This document shows, in pieces, positions 25,879-37,104 of a stretch of DNA of 64,000 bases. The position numbers were made by a program, and so were the translations under genes. The stretch spans positions 109,650-173,649 of the forward strand of contig JAFSOC010000031.1 of NCBI GenBank assembly GCA_017447185.1, given 5' to 3'. How positions within the stretch are numbered: the stretch's first letter is position 1; each line of letters starts with the position of its first letter. A model generated the notes under the pieces. That model saw only the letters and a list, made by a program, of their open reading frames with translations. It made no database searches and was not told where the DNA came from. The stretch is from Clostridia bacterium (GTDB lineage Bacteria; Bacillota; Clostridia; Christensenellales; Aristaeellaceae).

Positions 25879-27033
25879 ATGGTAAAAATCAATGTAATCT
25901 CCGGGTTCCTCGGCGCGGGGAAAACCACGCTGATCAAAAAACTGCTCACCGGCAGCCTCCGCAACGAAAAGGTGGTGCTGCTGGAAAATGAATACGGCGA
26001 AATCGGCATCGACGGCGGCTTCATGAAGGACGCCGGCATCACCGTGACCGAGCTGAACGCCGGCTGCATCTGCTGCACCCTGGCCGGGGACTTCCAGGCC
26101 GCGGTGGACCAGCTGATCGACACCTACCATCCCGACCGGATCCTGGTGGAGCCCACCGGCGTCGGTAAGCTGAGCGAGATCCTCTCCGCCGTGGAAAAGG
26201 CGAAAACCCGCCATCCCGACATCGAGATCGGCGGCAGCGCCACCGTAGTGGACGCCGGCAAGTGCCGGATGTACATGAAGAACTTCGGCGAATTCTTCCT
26301 GGACCAGGTGAAGAGCGCATCCACCGTGATCTTCAGCCGCACCCAACTGCTGGATGCCGATCGGGTGGAAAAGAGCCGCCTGCTGATCGCCGAAGCCCAT
26401 CCGGATGCCCGCATCATCACCACCCCCTGGGACGATATGGAACCGGATTTCATCCTCGAAGTGATCGAGAACGGCAAGCCCCTGTACTTCGCTCCCCTCG
26501 AAGATGACGATGATGACGAGGATGAGGGCGAACACGAACATCATCATCACCATCATGACCATGACCACGAGGAGCATGAGCATCATCATCACCACGATGT
26601 CGACGATGAGGAAGACGATGACGATGATGAGGACGAACACGAACATCATCACCACCATGACCACGATCATGAAGAGCATGAACATCATCACCATGATCAT
26701 GACCATGAGCATCATCACCATCATCACCATCACCACGGCGAAGGCGAACATGACGCAGACGAAGTTTTCGGCAACATCGGCCTGGAAACCGCGCAGCGCT
26801 ACGAGAAAGACGAGATCCGCTCCATCCTCGGAAAGCTGTCCGACGAAGAGGAATACGGCCGGATCCTCCGCGCCAAGGGTATCCTGCAGAACGCGGCCGG
26901 CGAGTGGTTCCAGTTTGACTATGTGCCCGGCGAGATCGACATGCGGGACGGCAGTGCAGACTACACCGGCCGCCTGTGCGTGATTGGAGCCGACCTGAAC
27001 GAAAAAGCATTGACGGAGCTGTTTCATTTATGA
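25879..27033 (+). CDS. COG0523/CobW-type G3E GTPase with His/Asp-rich metal-binding insert
   Basis: 384 residues. The Walker A (GFLGAGKTTL), the GCICC metal motif (CxCC) and the VEPTG switch define a COG0523 metallochaperone. Residues about 212-290 are almost only His, Asp and Glu, several times the length of the His stretches usual in this family. A CobW C-terminal domain follows (RILRAKGIL..FQFDYVPGE). Such GTPases deliver Zn, Co, Ni or Fe to client proteins, and the insert may store metal. The guanine-specificity motif NKxD reads SRTQ. The next gene overlaps by four bases and encodes a related protein. Confidence 0.92.
   Translation: MVKINVISGFLGAGKTTLIKKLLTGSLRNEKVVLLENEYGEIGIDGGFMKDAGITVTELNAGCICCTLAGDFQAAVDQLIDTYHPDRILVEPTGVGKLSEILSAVEKAKTRHPDIEIGGSATVVDAGKCRMYMKNFGEFFLDQVKSASTVIFSRTQLLDADRVEKSRLLIAEAHPDARIITTPWDDMEPDFILEVIENGKPLYFAPLEDDDDDEDEGEHEHHHHHHDHDHEEHEHHHHHDVDDEEDDDDDEDEHEHHHHHDHDHEEHEHHHHDHDHEHHHHHHHHHGEGEHDADEVFGNIGLETAQRYEKDEIRSILGKLSDEEEYGRILRAKGILQNAAGEWFQFDYVPGEIDMRDGSADYTGRLCVIGADLNEKALTELFHL
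26512..26748 (+). repeat. Low-complexity His/Asp/Glu codon tract
   Basis: About 235 bases built of CAT/CAC, GAT/GAC and GAG/GAA codons inside the GTPase gene. The pattern is imperfect and codon-phased, so it is selected at protein level rather than a DNA satellite. It could vary in length through slippage. Confidence 0.8.
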
Positions 27034-30560: not shown

Positions 30561-31589
30561 TTACGCGTCTTCTCCGGTGCGGTATCCGTCCGGGTTCATG
30601 CTCTGCCACCGCCAGGAATCAGCGCACATTTCCTCAATCCCGAACTGCGCCTCCCAGCCCAGTTCCTCCTTCGCCTTGCCCGGATCGCAGTAGCAGGTGG
30701 CGATATCCCCGGGGCGCCGCGGTTTGATGACATAGGGAATTTCATGTCCGCAGGCCTTGCCGAAGGCCTTCACTATATCCAGCACGCTGTAACCGTGGCC
30801 GGTTCCCAGGTTGTAGATCCGCACTGCGTTTTCCTCGCTGAACTTTTTCAGCGCCTGTACATGTCCCCGGGCCAGGTCCACCACATGGATGTAATCCCGC
30901 ACGCCCGTTCCGTCCGGCGTGTCATAATCGTCGCCGAAGACGCCCAGCTGCGGCAGCTTGCCCACCGCAACCTGCGCCACATAGGGCACCAGGTTGTTCG
31001 GAATGCCCTTGGGATCTTCGCCGATCTTTCCGCTGGGATGAGCGCCGATGGGGTTAAAGTACCGCAGCAGGATGACGCTCCATTCCGAATCGGCCGTATG
31101 CAGGTCGGTCAGGATCTGCTCCAGCATCCACTTGGTCCATCCGTAGGGATTGGTGCAGACGCCCTTGGGGCATTCCTCGGTGATCGGCACGAAGGCCGGA
31201 TCCCCGTACACTGTTGCGGAGGAGCTGAAGATGATCTTCTTCACCCCGAAGGTGCGCATCAGGTCCGTCAGCGTCAGCGTTCCGTACAGGTTGTTGGTAT
31301 AGTATTCAATGGGCTTGGCCACGGATTCTCCCACCGCCTTGTAGCCGGCGAAATGGATCACCGCGTCAAATCTGTGGGCGCGGAAAACCTTTTCCATGGC
31401 AGGACGGTCACACAGGTCCGCCTCGTAAAAGACCGGCGTCTTTCCCGTGATCTCCCCGATCCGGTCCACCGCCTTGCGGCTGGCATTGTACAGGTTGTCC
31501 ACGATCACGACCTCATGGCCGGCCTCCAGCAGTTCCACGCAGGTATGGCTGCCGATGTATCCGGCGCCGCCCGTTACCAGTATTTTCAT
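30561..31589 (-). CDS. galE: UDP-glucose 4-epimerase
   Basis: 342 residues, GGAGGAAG ribosome site. Rossmann NAD motif GGAGYIGSH, the catalytic Ser/Thr region FSSSATVYGDP and YxxxK (YGWTK), plus the C-terminal SRKAVDR-to-CYCDPGKAKEELGW region, give a full-length extended SDR epimerase. It interconverts UDP-glucose and UDP-galactose for sugar use and envelope glycans. It heads the likely galE-ppaC-degV unit. Confidence 0.95.
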   Translation of the reverse strand: MKILVTGGAGYIGSHTCVELLEAGHEVVIVDNLYNASRKAVDRIGEITGKTPVFYEADLCDRPAMEKVFRAHRFDAVIHFAGYKAVGESVAKPIEYYTNNLYGTLTLTDLMRTFGVKKIIFSSSATVYGDPAFVPITEECPKGVCTNPYGWTKWMLEQILTDLHTADSEWSVILLRYFNPIGAHPSGKIGEDPKGIPNNLVPYVAQVAVGKLPQLGVFGDDYDTPDGTGVRDYIHVVDLARGHVQALKKFSEENAVRIYNLGTGHGYSVLDIVKAFGKACGHEIPYVIKPRRPGDIATCYCDPGKAKEELGWEAQFGIEEMCADSWRWQSMNPDGYRTGEDA

Positions 31590-33459: not shown

Positions 33460-33496
33460 CCGGATTTTCCGCAATGGAAAATCCGGTCACTTTTTT
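33460..33496 (+). terminator. Intrinsic terminator of the CHAP gene
   Basis: An 11-bp stem (33460-33470 with 33476-33486) is followed by TCAC and T6. Confidence 0.8.
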
Positions 33497-33534
33497 GTAA
33501 GAAACATTTCATGTCCATATCCTGAAAAACATGA

Positions 33535-33540
33535 TATAAT
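33535..33540 (+). promoter_or_regulatory. -10 box upstream of the ligase-ACP-oxoamine synthase gene
   Basis: A consensus TATAAT lies 70 bases before the start; the -35 position (TGTCCA, 33512-33517) is weak. Confidence 0.5.
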
Positions 33541-33609
33541 GAAGTGATGCGCAGAAGACGCAGCGACGCGCAGGAGAACGCTCAACCCTTTTTTCGGAAG
33601 GAGAGTTTC

Positions 33610-36600
33610 ATGAGCAACATGGACATAATGCAGGTCAGTGCCCGTCTTTCGGCAGACAAACGGCTGTCCACCCTCTTTGAGATCCTGCGGGATTACGGGG
33701 ACGCGCCGGCTGCCCTCTGGCTGAAGGAGGATAAGGAGTTCACCCGTTCCTTCAAAACCATCACCGAGCGGGCGGACGACCTGGCCGCATACCTGACAGA
33801 GAACACGCCGGCAGGCGGATGGATCGCCATCGCCGTGGATACCTGCCATTACTGGCCCACCCTGTTCTGGGGCGTCATCCGTTCCGGCCATAACGCGCTC
33901 CTGCTGGATGCCTCCGCATCCGACACCCTGATCCAGGGCCTGCTGGAGGAAGCCGGCTGCAAAGTCATCATCTCCCGCAAGCCCCGCGGCCTTTCCGGCG
34001 ATATCCGCCAGATTGACTACAAGGCCGTTGTGGAAGCGCCCCGCACCATCGGATTCACCCCGGTCTGGGGTGAATATGTGGCCATGTGCACCAGCGGAAC
34101 CACCGGCCGCAGCCGGATCTTTGCCTATTCCGGCGCAGCCATCTGCGAGCAGGCGCTCATGTCCGTCCAGATTTATAAAGAGAACCGCCGGATCATCCAT
34201 GACGACAACCGCGGCCGCCGTGCCCTGGCCTTCCTGCCCTTCCATCATGTGTTGGGCTTCATGGCCAACGTGATCCTGGTTCCCTTCTGCGGCGCGGCCA
34301 ATGTCTACCTGCCGGACCGGACGCCCAATTCCATCATGAATGTGTGCCGCCATTTCCCGCCCAATCTGCTGATTGTGGTGCCGCTGGTGGGCAATAACCT
34401 GGTCAAGTCCCTGAAGAAAAACGTCAAAAAAGAAAAGCCCTTCAAACGCTGGCTGTTCAGGACCTCCACGGCCCTGTCCCTGGGCGTGCAGTACGCGGCG
34501 CCCTCCTTCGGCCTGCGCCTGGCGCAGAAGCGCCTCTTCGCGGGGATCGATTCCCGCCTGCTGGGCACGGAAGTGGACGTGGTGATCCTCGGCGGCAGCC
34601 ATACCCCCGCCGATACCCTCCGTTTCCTGAACGCCCTGGGTTACTATACGGTCAACGGCTTCGGCATGACTGAAACCGCCATTGACGGTTTTGAAACCTC
34701 CATGAAGCTGCACAAGCGGCTCAACGGCTCCGTCGGTGCATCCCTCGGTTCCGCCGAGTACCGGCTGGCCGGCGAGCCCGGCGCCAAAACCGGTGAACTG
34801 CAGATCCGCGGTGCGGGCATCCATTCCGGCCGCGTTGTGCATGGGGAGATTCTCCCGCCCGATACGTTGGAGGACAACTGGTTCCCCACCGGCGATGTGG
34901 CCCGCATGGACGACAACGGCCGCGTGTTCATCAAGGGCCGCCTGAAGGACGTCATCATCAACGAATCCGGTGAAAATGTCTACCCGGACGACCTGGAAGA
35001 CGCGTTCTCCGCCCTTTCCGGCGTGGATCAGATGTGCGTGGTCGGCTTCCGCCGTACCCGCCGTGACAAGAATGAAGACGTGGTGCTGGTCATGAACGTC
35101 GGCACCAACTATAACGATAAGGAATACCTGAAGTCCCTGGCCGGCAGGGTGGCTGCCATCAACATGCGGCTGCCGCTCCACGCCCACATCGACCGGGCGC
35201 TGGTCACCCCCATGTCCCTGCCCCTGGTCAGCGGCATCAAGGTCAAGCGACTGGAACTCAAGCGCCTCTATGAAGAAAAGGAACTGATCTACCGCGAGCT
35301 GGACCTGAAAGCCCAGAGCGCAGGCGCGGAAGTCGCCGCCCGGGAAAACACCCAGAGCGCCCACGCGAAATCCGCCGTGCAGGATGAGATCCGCCGCAAG
35401 GTCCGCGCCATGTACGCCGAGGCGCTGGACATTCCGGAAAAGGAAATCTCCGATTCCGCCCACTTCATCGAGGATCTGCAGGGCGACAGTCTGCAGGTGC
35501 TCAGCATCGCCCTCAAAGCGGAAGAGGAATGGGGCATCACCATTCCCGCCGAGCAGTACGGCCAGTGCGCCACTGTTGAAAACATGTCCCGCGTGGTTGA
35601 GGACCTGATGAACGGCACCGCGGAAACCGGCAAGCCCAAGGAGCGCGTCCCCGTCCGGCCCATCACCCGGTTTGAGGACACGCCTGAATACAAGCACTTC
35701 CTGGATCGCCAGAAGGCGCTGGTGGGCAGCGGCGATAATCCCTACTTCGTTGCCCATGAATCCCCGCTGCTGGACACCGGCATTGTGGACGGCAAGGAAA
35801 TTCTCGAGTTCGGCAGCTACAACTATGTGGGCATGTCCGGCCGGAAGGAAGTGAAGGAAGCCGCCAAGGCCGCCATCGACAAATACGGCACCAGCGCTTC
35901 CGGCAGCCGCCTGCTGGCCGGTGAAAAGATGATCCACAAGGAACTGGAAAAGGAACTGGCTGACTGGAAACACACGGAAGACGCCATCGTCTGCGTCGGC
36001 GGCCACTCCACCAATGTTACCTTTGTGGGCAACTTCTGCGGAAAGAACGACCTGATCCTGTACGACGCCCTGGCCCACAACTCCATCGAGCAGGGCTGCA
36101 AGCTCAGCGACGCCACCTCCCGTCCCTTCCCCCACAGCGATGTGGCGGCCCTCGAAACCATCCTGAAGAGCCAGCGGGCTTATTTCGAGAAGGTGCTGAT
36201 CGTTATCGAAGGCGCCTACAGCATGGACGGCGACATCGCCCCCGTGCCGGACTTTGTCCGCATCAAGAAGGAGTACGGCTGCTTCCTGATGGTGGATGAG
36301 GCGCACAGTGCCTGCGTCATCGGCGAGCACGGCGGCGGCGTGGATGAGTATTTCGGCCTGGACGGCAATGATATCGATATCAAGTACGGTACCCTTTCCA
36401 AGGGCCTGGGCACCTGCGGCGGCTACCTGGCCGGCAAAAAGTGCCTGATCGATTACCTGCGTTACAACATGCCGGGCTTCGTCTTCTCCGTCGGGATCTC
36501 CCCGGCTCTGGCCGCCGGTTCCCTGGCTGCCATCCGGACCCTGCGGACCCATCCGGAAATCATGGAGCACCTGCGGACCGCCATCCGCTCCTTCACCGAA

Positions 36601-36885
36601 AGCGCCAAGCGCCGCCACCTGGATATCTGCCTGGCGGGTGAAACTGCAGTGCTGCCGGTGCTGGTGGGCAAGGATGAGGACGCCTGGCTCCTGTCCAACG
36701 AACTGAAAAAGCGGGGCGTCAGCGTACCTCCCGCCATGTATCCCGCCGTTCCAAAGGGCAAGGCCCGCCTCCGCTTCTGCGTGATCAGCGAGCACAAGCC
36801 TGAGCAGATTGAAAAAGCGCTGGATATCCTGGAAGCAACCGCCCAGGAATTCGGTATTGAGCTTCCCCGCAGAAACTATGATTAA
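33610..36885 (+). CDS. Three-domain acyl-AMP ligase / acyl carrier protein / alpha-oxoamine synthase
   Basis: 1091 residues from the ATG at 33610 (GGAAGGAG site). Residues about 1-560 are an adenylate-forming ligase (CTSGTTGRSRIF, GFGMTETA, TGDVARMDDNGRVFIKGRLKD). Residues about 575-665 are an acyl carrier domain with phosphopantetheine Ser627 in GDSLQVL. Residues about 690-1085 are a PLP-dependent alpha-oxoamine synthase of the AONS/serine-palmitoyltransferase family (GSYNYVGMSG, VDEAHSACVIGEHGGG, PLP Lys931 in TLSKGLGTCGG). The chain would activate a free fatty acid, load it on the ACP and condense it with an amino acid to a 3-ketoamine with loss of CO2. Product could be a sphinganine-like base, aminoketone signal or pyrrole precursor. 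The genes usually needed to finish biotin are absent, so a biotin role is unlikely. Confidence 0.85.
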   Translation: MSNMDIMQVSARLSADKRLSTLFEILRDYGDAPAALWLKEDKEFTRSFKTITERADDLAAYLTENTPAGGWIAIAVDTCHYWPTLFWGVIRSGHNALLLDASASDTLIQGLLEEAGCKVIISRKPRGLSGDIRQIDYKAVVEAPRTIGFTPVWGEYVAMCTSGTTGRSRIFAYSGAAICEQALMSVQIYKENRRIIHDDNRGRRALAFLPFHHVLGFMANVILVPFCGAANVYLPDRTPNSIMNVCRHFPPNLLIVVPLVGNNLVKSLKKNVKKEKPFKRWLFRTSTALSLGVQYAAPSFGLRLAQKRLFAGIDSRLLGTEVDVVILGGSHTPADTLRFLNALGYYTVNGFGMTETAIDGFETSMKLHKRLNGSVGASLGSAEYRLAGEPGAKTGELQIRGAGIHSGRVVHGEILPPDTLEDNWFPTGDVARMDDNGRVFIKGRLKDVIINESGENVYPDDLEDAFSALSGVDQMCVVGFRRTRRDKNEDVVLVMNVGTNYNDKEYLKSLAGRVAAINMRLPLHAHIDRALVTPMSLPLVSGIKVKRLELKRLYEEKELIYRELDLKAQSAGAEVAARENTQSAHAKSAVQDEIRRKVRAMYAEALDIPEKEISDSAHFIEDLQGDSLQVLSIALKAEEEWGITIPAEQYGQCATVENMSRVVEDLMNGTAETGKPKERVPVRPITRFEDTPEYKHFLDRQKALVGSGDNPYFVAHESPLLDTGIVDGKEILEFGSYNYVGMSGRKEVKEAAKAAIDKYGTSASGSRLLAGEKMIHKELEKELADWKHTEDAIVCVGGHSTNVTFVGNFCGKNDLILYDALAHNSIEQGCKLSDATSRPFPHSDVAALETILKSQRAYFEKVLIVIEGAYSMDGDIAPVPDFVRIKKEYGCFLMVDEAHSACVIGEHGGGVDEYFGLDGNDIDIKYGTLSKGLGTCGGYLAGKKCLIDYLRYNMPGFVFSVGISPALAAGSLAAIRTLRTHPEIMEHLRTAIRSFTESAKRRHLDICLAGETAVLPVLVGKDEDAWLLSNELKKRGVSVPPAMYPAVPKGKARLRFCVISEHKPEQIEKALDILEATAQEFGIELPRRNYD

Positions 36886-36915: not shown

Positions 36916-37053
36916 ATGGATACCGGTGTCGTCGTTGCCATTGCCGTCGTTCTCTTCATTGCCATCTTCGCGGTGCTCGTCTGCATTTTCGGCAGCGTTG
37001 CCGGAACGACCAGCGCCATCAAGCACACCAATGATGAGGATACCAACGCGTAA
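36916..37053 (+). CDS. 45-residue single-pass membrane peptide
   Basis: ATG at 36916 is preceded by AAAGGAG and lies 30 bases after the oxoamine-synthase gene. The peptide has one hydrophobic segment (about residues 4-29, DTGVVVAIAVVLFIAIF..) and a short charged tail (KHTNDEDTNA). The strong ribosome site, gene spacing and terminator right behind it support a real gene. I recognise no family. It could anchor the soluble three-domain enzyme to the membrane, in the way small subunits assist eukaryotic serine palmitoyltransferase (analogy only). Confidence 0.65.
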   Translation: MDTGVVVAIAVVLFIAIFAVLVCIFGSVAGTTSAIKHTNDEDTNA

Positions 37054-37069
37054 AACCAGGCAATGCGCC

Positions 37070-37104
37070 AAAAGGGCCTGACCGCACGGTCAGGCCCTTT
37101 TCCT
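37070..37104. terminator. Strong bidirectional terminator
   Basis: Complementary 14-base arms at 37070-37083 and 37088-37101 with a four-base loop and T/A-rich flanks, between the small membrane gene and the convergent leucine-rich-repeat gene. Confidence 0.85.

Follow-up and report, generated by a model that had tools for sequence, protein, structure and literature searches.

A fused acyl-adenylating ligase, acyl carrier and alpha-oxoamine synthase in Clostridia that resembles, with a separate reductase, a compact sphingoid-base pathway

In the reports consulted here, Bacteroidetes and Proteobacteria are named as the bacterial makers of sphingolipids (PMC9386255), and some Actinobacteria are predicted to make them (PMC12134224). 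In the AasR/AcpR/SPT system of Rhodobacteria, the passage of a free acid to a carrier and on to an alpha-oxoamine synthase (AOS), here a serine palmitoyltransferase (SPT), is shown for three separate proteins, a dedicated ligase loading a dedicated carrier before the AOS condenses (Caulobacter CC_1165, CC_1163 and CC_1162, with homologues in E. coli BL21; PMC9386255). In the SgaA/SgaB/SgaC system of Pseudomonas fluorescens, whose AOS is partnered by a polyketide synthase (PKS), SgaB has SPT activity, binds and condenses L-serine, to the near exclusion of alanine and glycine, and forms 3-ketosphinganines, while a KDSR-like short-chain dehydrogenase/reductase (SDR) lies in the same cluster (PMC12134224). 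Here we describe a gene in a 64,000-nucleotide stretch of a Clostridia metagenome-assembled genome (MAG; GCA_017447185.1, contig JAFSOC010000031.1, positions 109,650 to 173,649, forward strand), the whole of which is called the window below, that joins an acyl-adenylating ligase, an acyl carrier protein (ACP) domain and an AOS in one chain. The gene is real and conserved, and to judge from sequence it looks, together with an SDR, like a compact sphingoid-base pathway. A literature search by title and start of abstract returned no description of this fused protein or of sphingolipid synthesis in these Clostridia.

Three predicted activities in one conserved chain

The features of the fused gene are as follows.

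33598..33603, + strand: Shine-Dalgarno-like AAGGAG, 6 bases 5' of the ATG (direct sequence reading)
33610..36885, + strand: fused acyl-adenylating ligase/ACP/AOS, 1091 aa (open frame, Pfam, alignment of 31)
33688..34830, + strand: N-terminal domain of the ANL ligase, aa 27-407, with TSGTTG at aa 161 (Pfam AMP-binding, E 3.3e-33)
34948..35217, + strand: C-terminal domain of the ANL ligase, aa 447-536 (Pfam AMP-binding_C_3, E 3e-5)
35239-35241, + strand: codon of ligase Lys544, just past the C-terminal domain (invariant in 31/31 aligned)
35398..35595, + strand: acyl carrier domain, aa 597-662 (Pfam PP-binding, E 1.3e-10)
35488-35490, + strand: codon AGT of the phosphopantetheine Ser627 in GDSL (motif position, invariance)
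35797..36828, + strand: AOS domain, aa 730-1073 (Pfam Aminotran_1_2, E 1.2e-44; trees)
36400-36402, + strand: codon AAG of Lys931 in LSKG, which would bind pyridoxal phosphate (PLP; motif position)

The frame starts with the ATG at 33610 and comprises 1091 codons, its stop codon ending at 36885, and all four Pfam domains score above the gathering threshold. The initial annotation had placed three activities in one 1091-residue chain, with Ser627 and Lys931 as catalytic residues; the Pfam domains bear out this architecture, and the numbering of both residues is correct (GDSL and LSKG, codons at 35488 and 36400). Across 31 aligned fused proteins, the window protein included, Lys544 and Ser627 never vary, and the same holds for G625, D626 and L628 of the carrier. 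As expected of the AOS family, D896 and H899 are invariant and K931 nearly so, the three being residues to which we assign catalytic roles; the K, D/E and H columns are common to SPT, Kbl, BioF and ALAS rows. The exceptions at Lys931 are two rows (L043 and L044), fused homologues that keep the ligase-ACP part with a probably dead AOS domain. Between the fused gene and four close relatives, dN was 0.075-0.175 and dS 0.63-0.71, and the resulting dN/dS of about 0.11-0.25 indicates purifying selection. A structure model of the ligase part (aa 1-560) showed an ANL fold with a pLDDT of 89.4; the full-length model reached a pLDDT of 78.4 and a pTM of 0.50, with the AOS part predicted at low confidence.

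The genome of the window (88.7% complete) holds only one strong AOS match, at 295.8 bits, the next scoring 20.9, and it encodes one phosphopantetheinyl transferase of the ACPS family. The protein had also been called self-contained, which stands insofar as three domains share one chain; it would, however, be expected to rely on partners encoded elsewhere, namely this transferase and probably an SDR.

A reductase that accompanies the synthase

The initial annotation had proposed looking for reductases near the gene in relatives, and such a neighbour was indeed found. In gene maps of many relatives, the place directly upstream of the fused gene is taken by a co-directional SDR gene of about 270 aa, which in four loci (L170, which is Treponema-titled, L183, L192 and L194) lies directly downstream instead. 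Overall, 32 of 64 full-length fused loci have an adjacent SDR gene on the same strand, compared with 1 of 463 for other genes there by the same profile; the 64 are what is left of 80 named loci (out of 575 confirmed stretches) after removal of 16 whose match starts after residue 150 or ends before 1000. SDR-linked loci include L170 and L164, the latter from Clostridium sp. N3C. The protein matches Pfam adh_short and carries a YTASK motif, and it is probably a ketoreductase-like partner, predicted to reduce the ketone made by the synthase. In the genome of the window itself the SDR is unlinked (G000:C25:99896-100702); it is 85% identical to the copy in the congener G091, where the SDR is found upstream of the fused gene, seven genes away (L069).

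A sample of 100 genomes from the family of the window genome, its own included, was then compared for the forms that the synthase takes. Ligase, carrier and AOS were joined in one match in 33 genomes (in G021 the match covers residues 349-1089 only and holds one stop, and G088 also holds one stop), and in G022 the fused form is spread over two contigs. Fourteen genomes carry a stand-alone AOS (64-69% identity), 13 a more distant AOS (33-37% identity), one of these (G036) with a ligase-ACP piece as well; in G018 the match is cut by a contig end, and the remaining 38 gave no match at 1e-60. Fused and stand-alone AOS group together in a single clade (100/100 in a 91-row tree, 100/99 in a 45-row tree), which also holds rows titled Clostridium sp. 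N3C, Treponema, Planctomycetota and Burkholderiales. The 45 rows were hand-chosen without duplicates, the long rows BioF, ALAS and Acidisoma being left out; in the 91-row tree eight AOS rows are present twice under two labels, which makes its counts of rows labelled SOLO and DIST unusable, and the trees leave out L043 and L044 with their degenerate AOS as well as ref_Methylobact_AOS (14 stops, wrong frame). The stand-alone AOS (L049, L052-L064) are nested in the fused clade at two places, so that their ligase and carrier have probably been lost; a single loss instead of two may account for this, the forks between both places being weakly supported. A search for the ligase-ACP part in the 14 stand-alone-AOS genomes and four others gave 5e-17 as its best match, all matches starting after residue 310; the 14 genomes are indeed devoid of this part.

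An SDR match at E 1e-62 or better, counted as strong, was found in 41 of the 48 family genomes with this AOS clade versus 4 of the 52 without it (Fisher P about 4e-16, ancestry uncorrected). By form, the match was present in 32 of 34 genomes with fused proteins and in 9 of 14 with stand-alone AOS. In this count G018 was placed among the AOS-negative genomes, and three SDR hits of lower strength (E about 1e-37) did not enter it; the count and that of the loci overlap (e.g. L137 with G057:C25 and L198 with G313:C2), so the two are not independent. Being kept through domain loss and linked in more than one phylum, the SDR behaves as would be expected of a dedicated ketoreductase. The recurrent neighbours of stand-alone SDR genes, named by reading as MTA/SAH nucleosidase-like, rRNA methyltransferase-like and SPFH-like, were not taken as pathway genes.

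Relation to known systems and proposed pathway

Like AasR/AcpR/SPT, the window protein combines ligase, carrier and AOS functions, as predicted from its domains; it does so in a single chain, whereas the former comprises three genes. Close homology between the two is lacking: against profiles of the fused family, the E. coli BL21 proteins AasR, AcpR and Spt score 54, 21 and 245 bits, so that ligase and carrier are only remotely related, and the AOS, which shares 32% identity with E. coli BL21 Spt, belongs to another clade. In addition, the presumptive reductase of AasR/AcpR/SPT is an epimerase-type protein, in contrast to the classical SDR that probably partners the window system. The remote kinship to AasR and AcpR suggests that the fused protein would work alike but is assembled from other parts, and the best reading of the window system is an independently assembled counterpart of the three-gene one.

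The sister group of the clade, at 100/100, consists of the AOS of PKS loci (Pseudomonas, Paraburkholderia, Shinella, S. meliloti, Planktothrix and Streptomyces), and the window AOS lies beside and not inside it in the 45-row tree. It shares with this group C936 and G962, which 12 of 12 clade rows and none of 11 others have among 23 hand-picked rows aligned. In Shinella and S. meliloti an SDR gene comes after that of the AOS, the genes of the S. meliloti pSymB locus being presumably RkpG/RkpH, and the Planktothrix AOS sits at the end of a PKS. In these systems the chain is built on a type I PKS, whereas the window protein is predicted to take up a free acid via its fused ligase-ACP; the identity of the PKS-partnered AOS to the window domain is only 42-48%, a comparison outside which the SgaB sequence stands. 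No PKS was recognised among the open reading frames (ORFs) of window positions 24-46 kb, the part of the genome searched for PKS. A Streptomyces plasmid protein of 1607 aa (L214:11749-16572) combines ketosynthase, acyltransferase, ACP and AOS in a single chain, with an MMPL transporter gene alongside.

The canonical SPTs (Sphingobacterium 3a2b, S. wittichii 2x8u, Bacteroidetes) share the AOS family, the PLP lysine and a T-x-S-K motif with the window domain but are stand-alone proteins with 34-36% identity to it, whose equivalog cut-offs it misses. They form, with E. coli BL21 Spt, a separate group (100/100), the window AOS standing apart from both SPT and Kbl. BioWF fusions likewise join an acid-activating enzyme to an AOS (PMC9544090), but they differ in using pimelate, a CoA thioester and alanine and in having two domains, whereas the window protein has a carrier domain and comes from a genome without a bioB match.

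Taken together, these comparisons are probably best explained by a one-chain synthase of the 3-ketosphinganine (sphingoid-base) type acting with a separate SDR reductase. The ligase domain would use ATP to convert a free fatty acid into an acyl-AMP and load it onto the phosphopantetheine of Ser627, which the ACPS-family transferase of the genome would have attached in trans. The carrier would then deliver the acyl chain to the PLP domain (Lys931), where condensation with an amino acid, most likely L-serine, under loss of CO2 would give a 3-ketosphinganine-type aminoketone, and the separate SDR, encoded on contig C25 of the same genome and adjoining the fused gene in many relatives, would reduce the ketone to a sphinganine-type amino alcohol. 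We infer acyl-AMP formation and Ser627 loading from domains and invariant residues, acyl transfer and decarboxylative condensation from the family, and ketone reduction from linkage and co-occurrence; the serine substrate, the acyl chain length and the fate of the base, whether free, N-acylated or bound to a polysaccharide, are matters of inference too.

Several observations weigh against this explanation. The AOS domain falls under the cut-offs of all NCBIfam AOS models listed, among them every SPT equivalog (NF047600, 296.1/640; NF047599, 274.9/500; NF047603, 238.4/670), and SgaB was placed in the sister clade by gene organisation, as in the Pseudomonas plasmid pair L217, not by sequence. 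Half of the full-length loci (32/64) have no co-directional adjacent SDR; these SDR-unlinked loci include all ten that are at least 66% identical to the window protein (L128-L136, L174), and three Planctomycetota-titled and one Brocadiia-titled locus (L172, L173, L175, L184) are unlinked too, while at a second Treponema-titled locus (L171) the adjacent SDR is on the opposite strand. Moreover, 7 of the 48 AOS genomes have no SDR match and 4 AOS-negative genomes have one, mismatches that MAG incompleteness may explain in part. A ceramide-type acyltransferase, sought with E. coli YghO as the single probe, gave no match, which alone shows nothing.

Could the same chemistry operate on another amino acid, either alanine or glycine, giving a 1-deoxy-type base or aminoketone, or cysteate, giving a capnine or sulfonolipid precursor? 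The substrate is not readable from sequence, and residue columns lined up with SPT led to no assignment; the listed AOS equivalog cut-offs, SPT included, are missed, and a cysteate-C-fatty acyltransferase is among the PDB matches (E 2.3e-48). We nevertheless consider such a substrate unlikely, as the cysteate enzyme scores below bacterial SPTs and Kbl, and SgaB is near-exclusive for serine against alanine and glycine, cysteate being unmentioned in section 8 of that report (PMC12134224). L-Serine is thus, by analogy with the sister clade, the reasonably probable substrate.

A different fate of the base, as the lipid anchor of a surface polysaccharide and not a free sphingolipid, is compatible with the proposed synthase and reductase, since only what becomes of the base differs. 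Of the 7 annotated plasmid loci that carry related AOS, 4 have capsule-annotated genes in the vicinity (L215, L217, L219 and L221; not L213, L214 and L216), and an ORF of the window (30561-31589, - strand) reads as a GalE-like epimerase; however, no capsule export genes were recognised in the ORFs read beside the gene, without systematic annotation, and we hold this fate to be quite improbable. Release of an unreduced, autoinducer-like aminoketone signal seems very improbable: CqsA-type autoinducer synthases are AOS homologues, but matches to CAI-1 synthase, at E about 1e-23, belong to the weaker AOS hits, and the SDR association is strong. The association and the AOS clade together favour a reduced sphingoid base, so that of the products considered in the initial annotation the sphingoid-like one now leads and the aminoketone signal has lost ground.

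Synthesis of a biotin precursor by a BioWF-like KAPA (7-keto-8-aminopelargonate) synthase with built-in pimelate activation was rejected and has a practically negligible chance, although such fusions exist (PMC9544090) and bioF is the best-scoring NCBIfam model for the AOS domain (342.3 bits), because the domain stays below the bioF cut-off of 426.45 (about 338.8-342.3 bits) and is just 29% identical to E. coli BioF, the protein contains a carrier domain, and the genome combines a single strong AOS with no match to bioB, the sole biotin gene searched, which scored above its cut-off in 0 of 100 family genomes (weaker matches in 27). This agrees with the earlier remark that biotin genes are absent nearby.

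We give about even chances to the broader proposal that this is a further, independently assembled sphingoid-base route, made up of one fused protein and a small SDR, by which gut and rumen Clostridia, and perhaps some Treponema and Planctomycetota, would be sphingolipid-type producers, free host or dietary fatty acids being a possible chain source. If true, gut and rumen Clostridia would join the possible long-chain-base producers as an unrecognised group, the two-gene module would offer a compact marker for finding producers in metagenomes, and the protein would be a naturally occurring biocatalyst that turns free fatty acids into aminoketones within one chain.

Distribution, acid supply and surroundings

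The fused gene is common in the family of the window genome and patchy beyond it. In a sample of the source order, 23 of 248 genomes match at E 1e-100, stand-alone and partial forms counted, and 13 of these belong to the same family, the window genome included; in a sample of the phylum, 4 of 398 match, its own included, the other three being partial (two ACP-AOS, one ligase-ACP). The distant AOS never occurs alongside the fused/stand-alone clade in the 100 family genomes (expected by chance with a probability of about 9e-5 if ancestry is disregarded), and the 8 of 13 distant AOS placed in the 91-row tree all fall with canonical SPTs. In 4 of 8 mapped loci of such canonical-SPT-like AOS (34-36% identical to the window AOS), namely L118, L119, L120 and L123 (G038, G005, G052 and G001), an SDR directly follows. 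Other combinations of the domains were seen as well: two ligase-ACP proteins without an AOS domain (668 and 677 aa; L065 and L066) in genome G119, and two-domain ACP-AOS forms without a ligase (L195, L203, G365:C3:77222-78718 and G669:C2:61632-63203).

As for the loading part, the PDB sequences closest to the ligase by profile are OSB (o-succinylbenzoyl)-CoA ligase and FadD13, with acyl-ACP synthetase also among the matches, and by fold the best PDB matches are acyl-CoA synthetases and other adenylating enzymes. The label of fatty acyl-AMP ligase (FAAL) was set aside, no FAAL being named among 60 of 79 PDB sequences listed or among the 50 folds listed; a plasmid FAAL of Diaphorobacter scores 61 bits with the fused-family ligase profile. 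Beside the fused gene in four Clostridiaceae-titled loci (L182, L187, L189 and L197) lies a divergent thioesterase-family gene, and all four products pass 4HBT_2, one of them also an acyl-ACP thioesterase C-terminal model; these thioesterases could supply free fatty acid to the fused enzyme. In a Burkholderiales-titled MAG (L178:10480-15178) four ORFs come after the fused gene: one of carrier size, one for a methyltransferase of the cyclopropane-synthase type, one for a fatty acid desaturase and one that resembles a ligase, the first and last named by reading of the sequence.

A dedicated gene cluster around the fused gene was also sought: besides the SDR, the neighbours at the loci read varied and were mostly housekeeping-like. 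In the window, two features directly follow the gene.

36916..37053, + strand: small hydrophobic ORF, 45 aa, directly 3' of the fused gene (sequence reading)
37074..37100, + strand: intrinsic-terminator-like inverted repeat (37074-37083 pairs with 37088-37097) followed by T (direct reading, unscored)

The 45-aa ORF, for which a Pfam search gave no match, perhaps encodes one membrane helix, and 45-aa ORFs of one cluster hold the equivalent place in two close named relatives (L128 and L135). An antisense open frame of 1102 aa (33487-36795, - strand) spans nearly the entire fused gene; it is probably a by-product of the codon use there and no gene of its own. At window positions 25879-27033, a CobW-like protein carries a long His/Asp/Glu-rich stretch that, from reading of the translation, perhaps binds metal.

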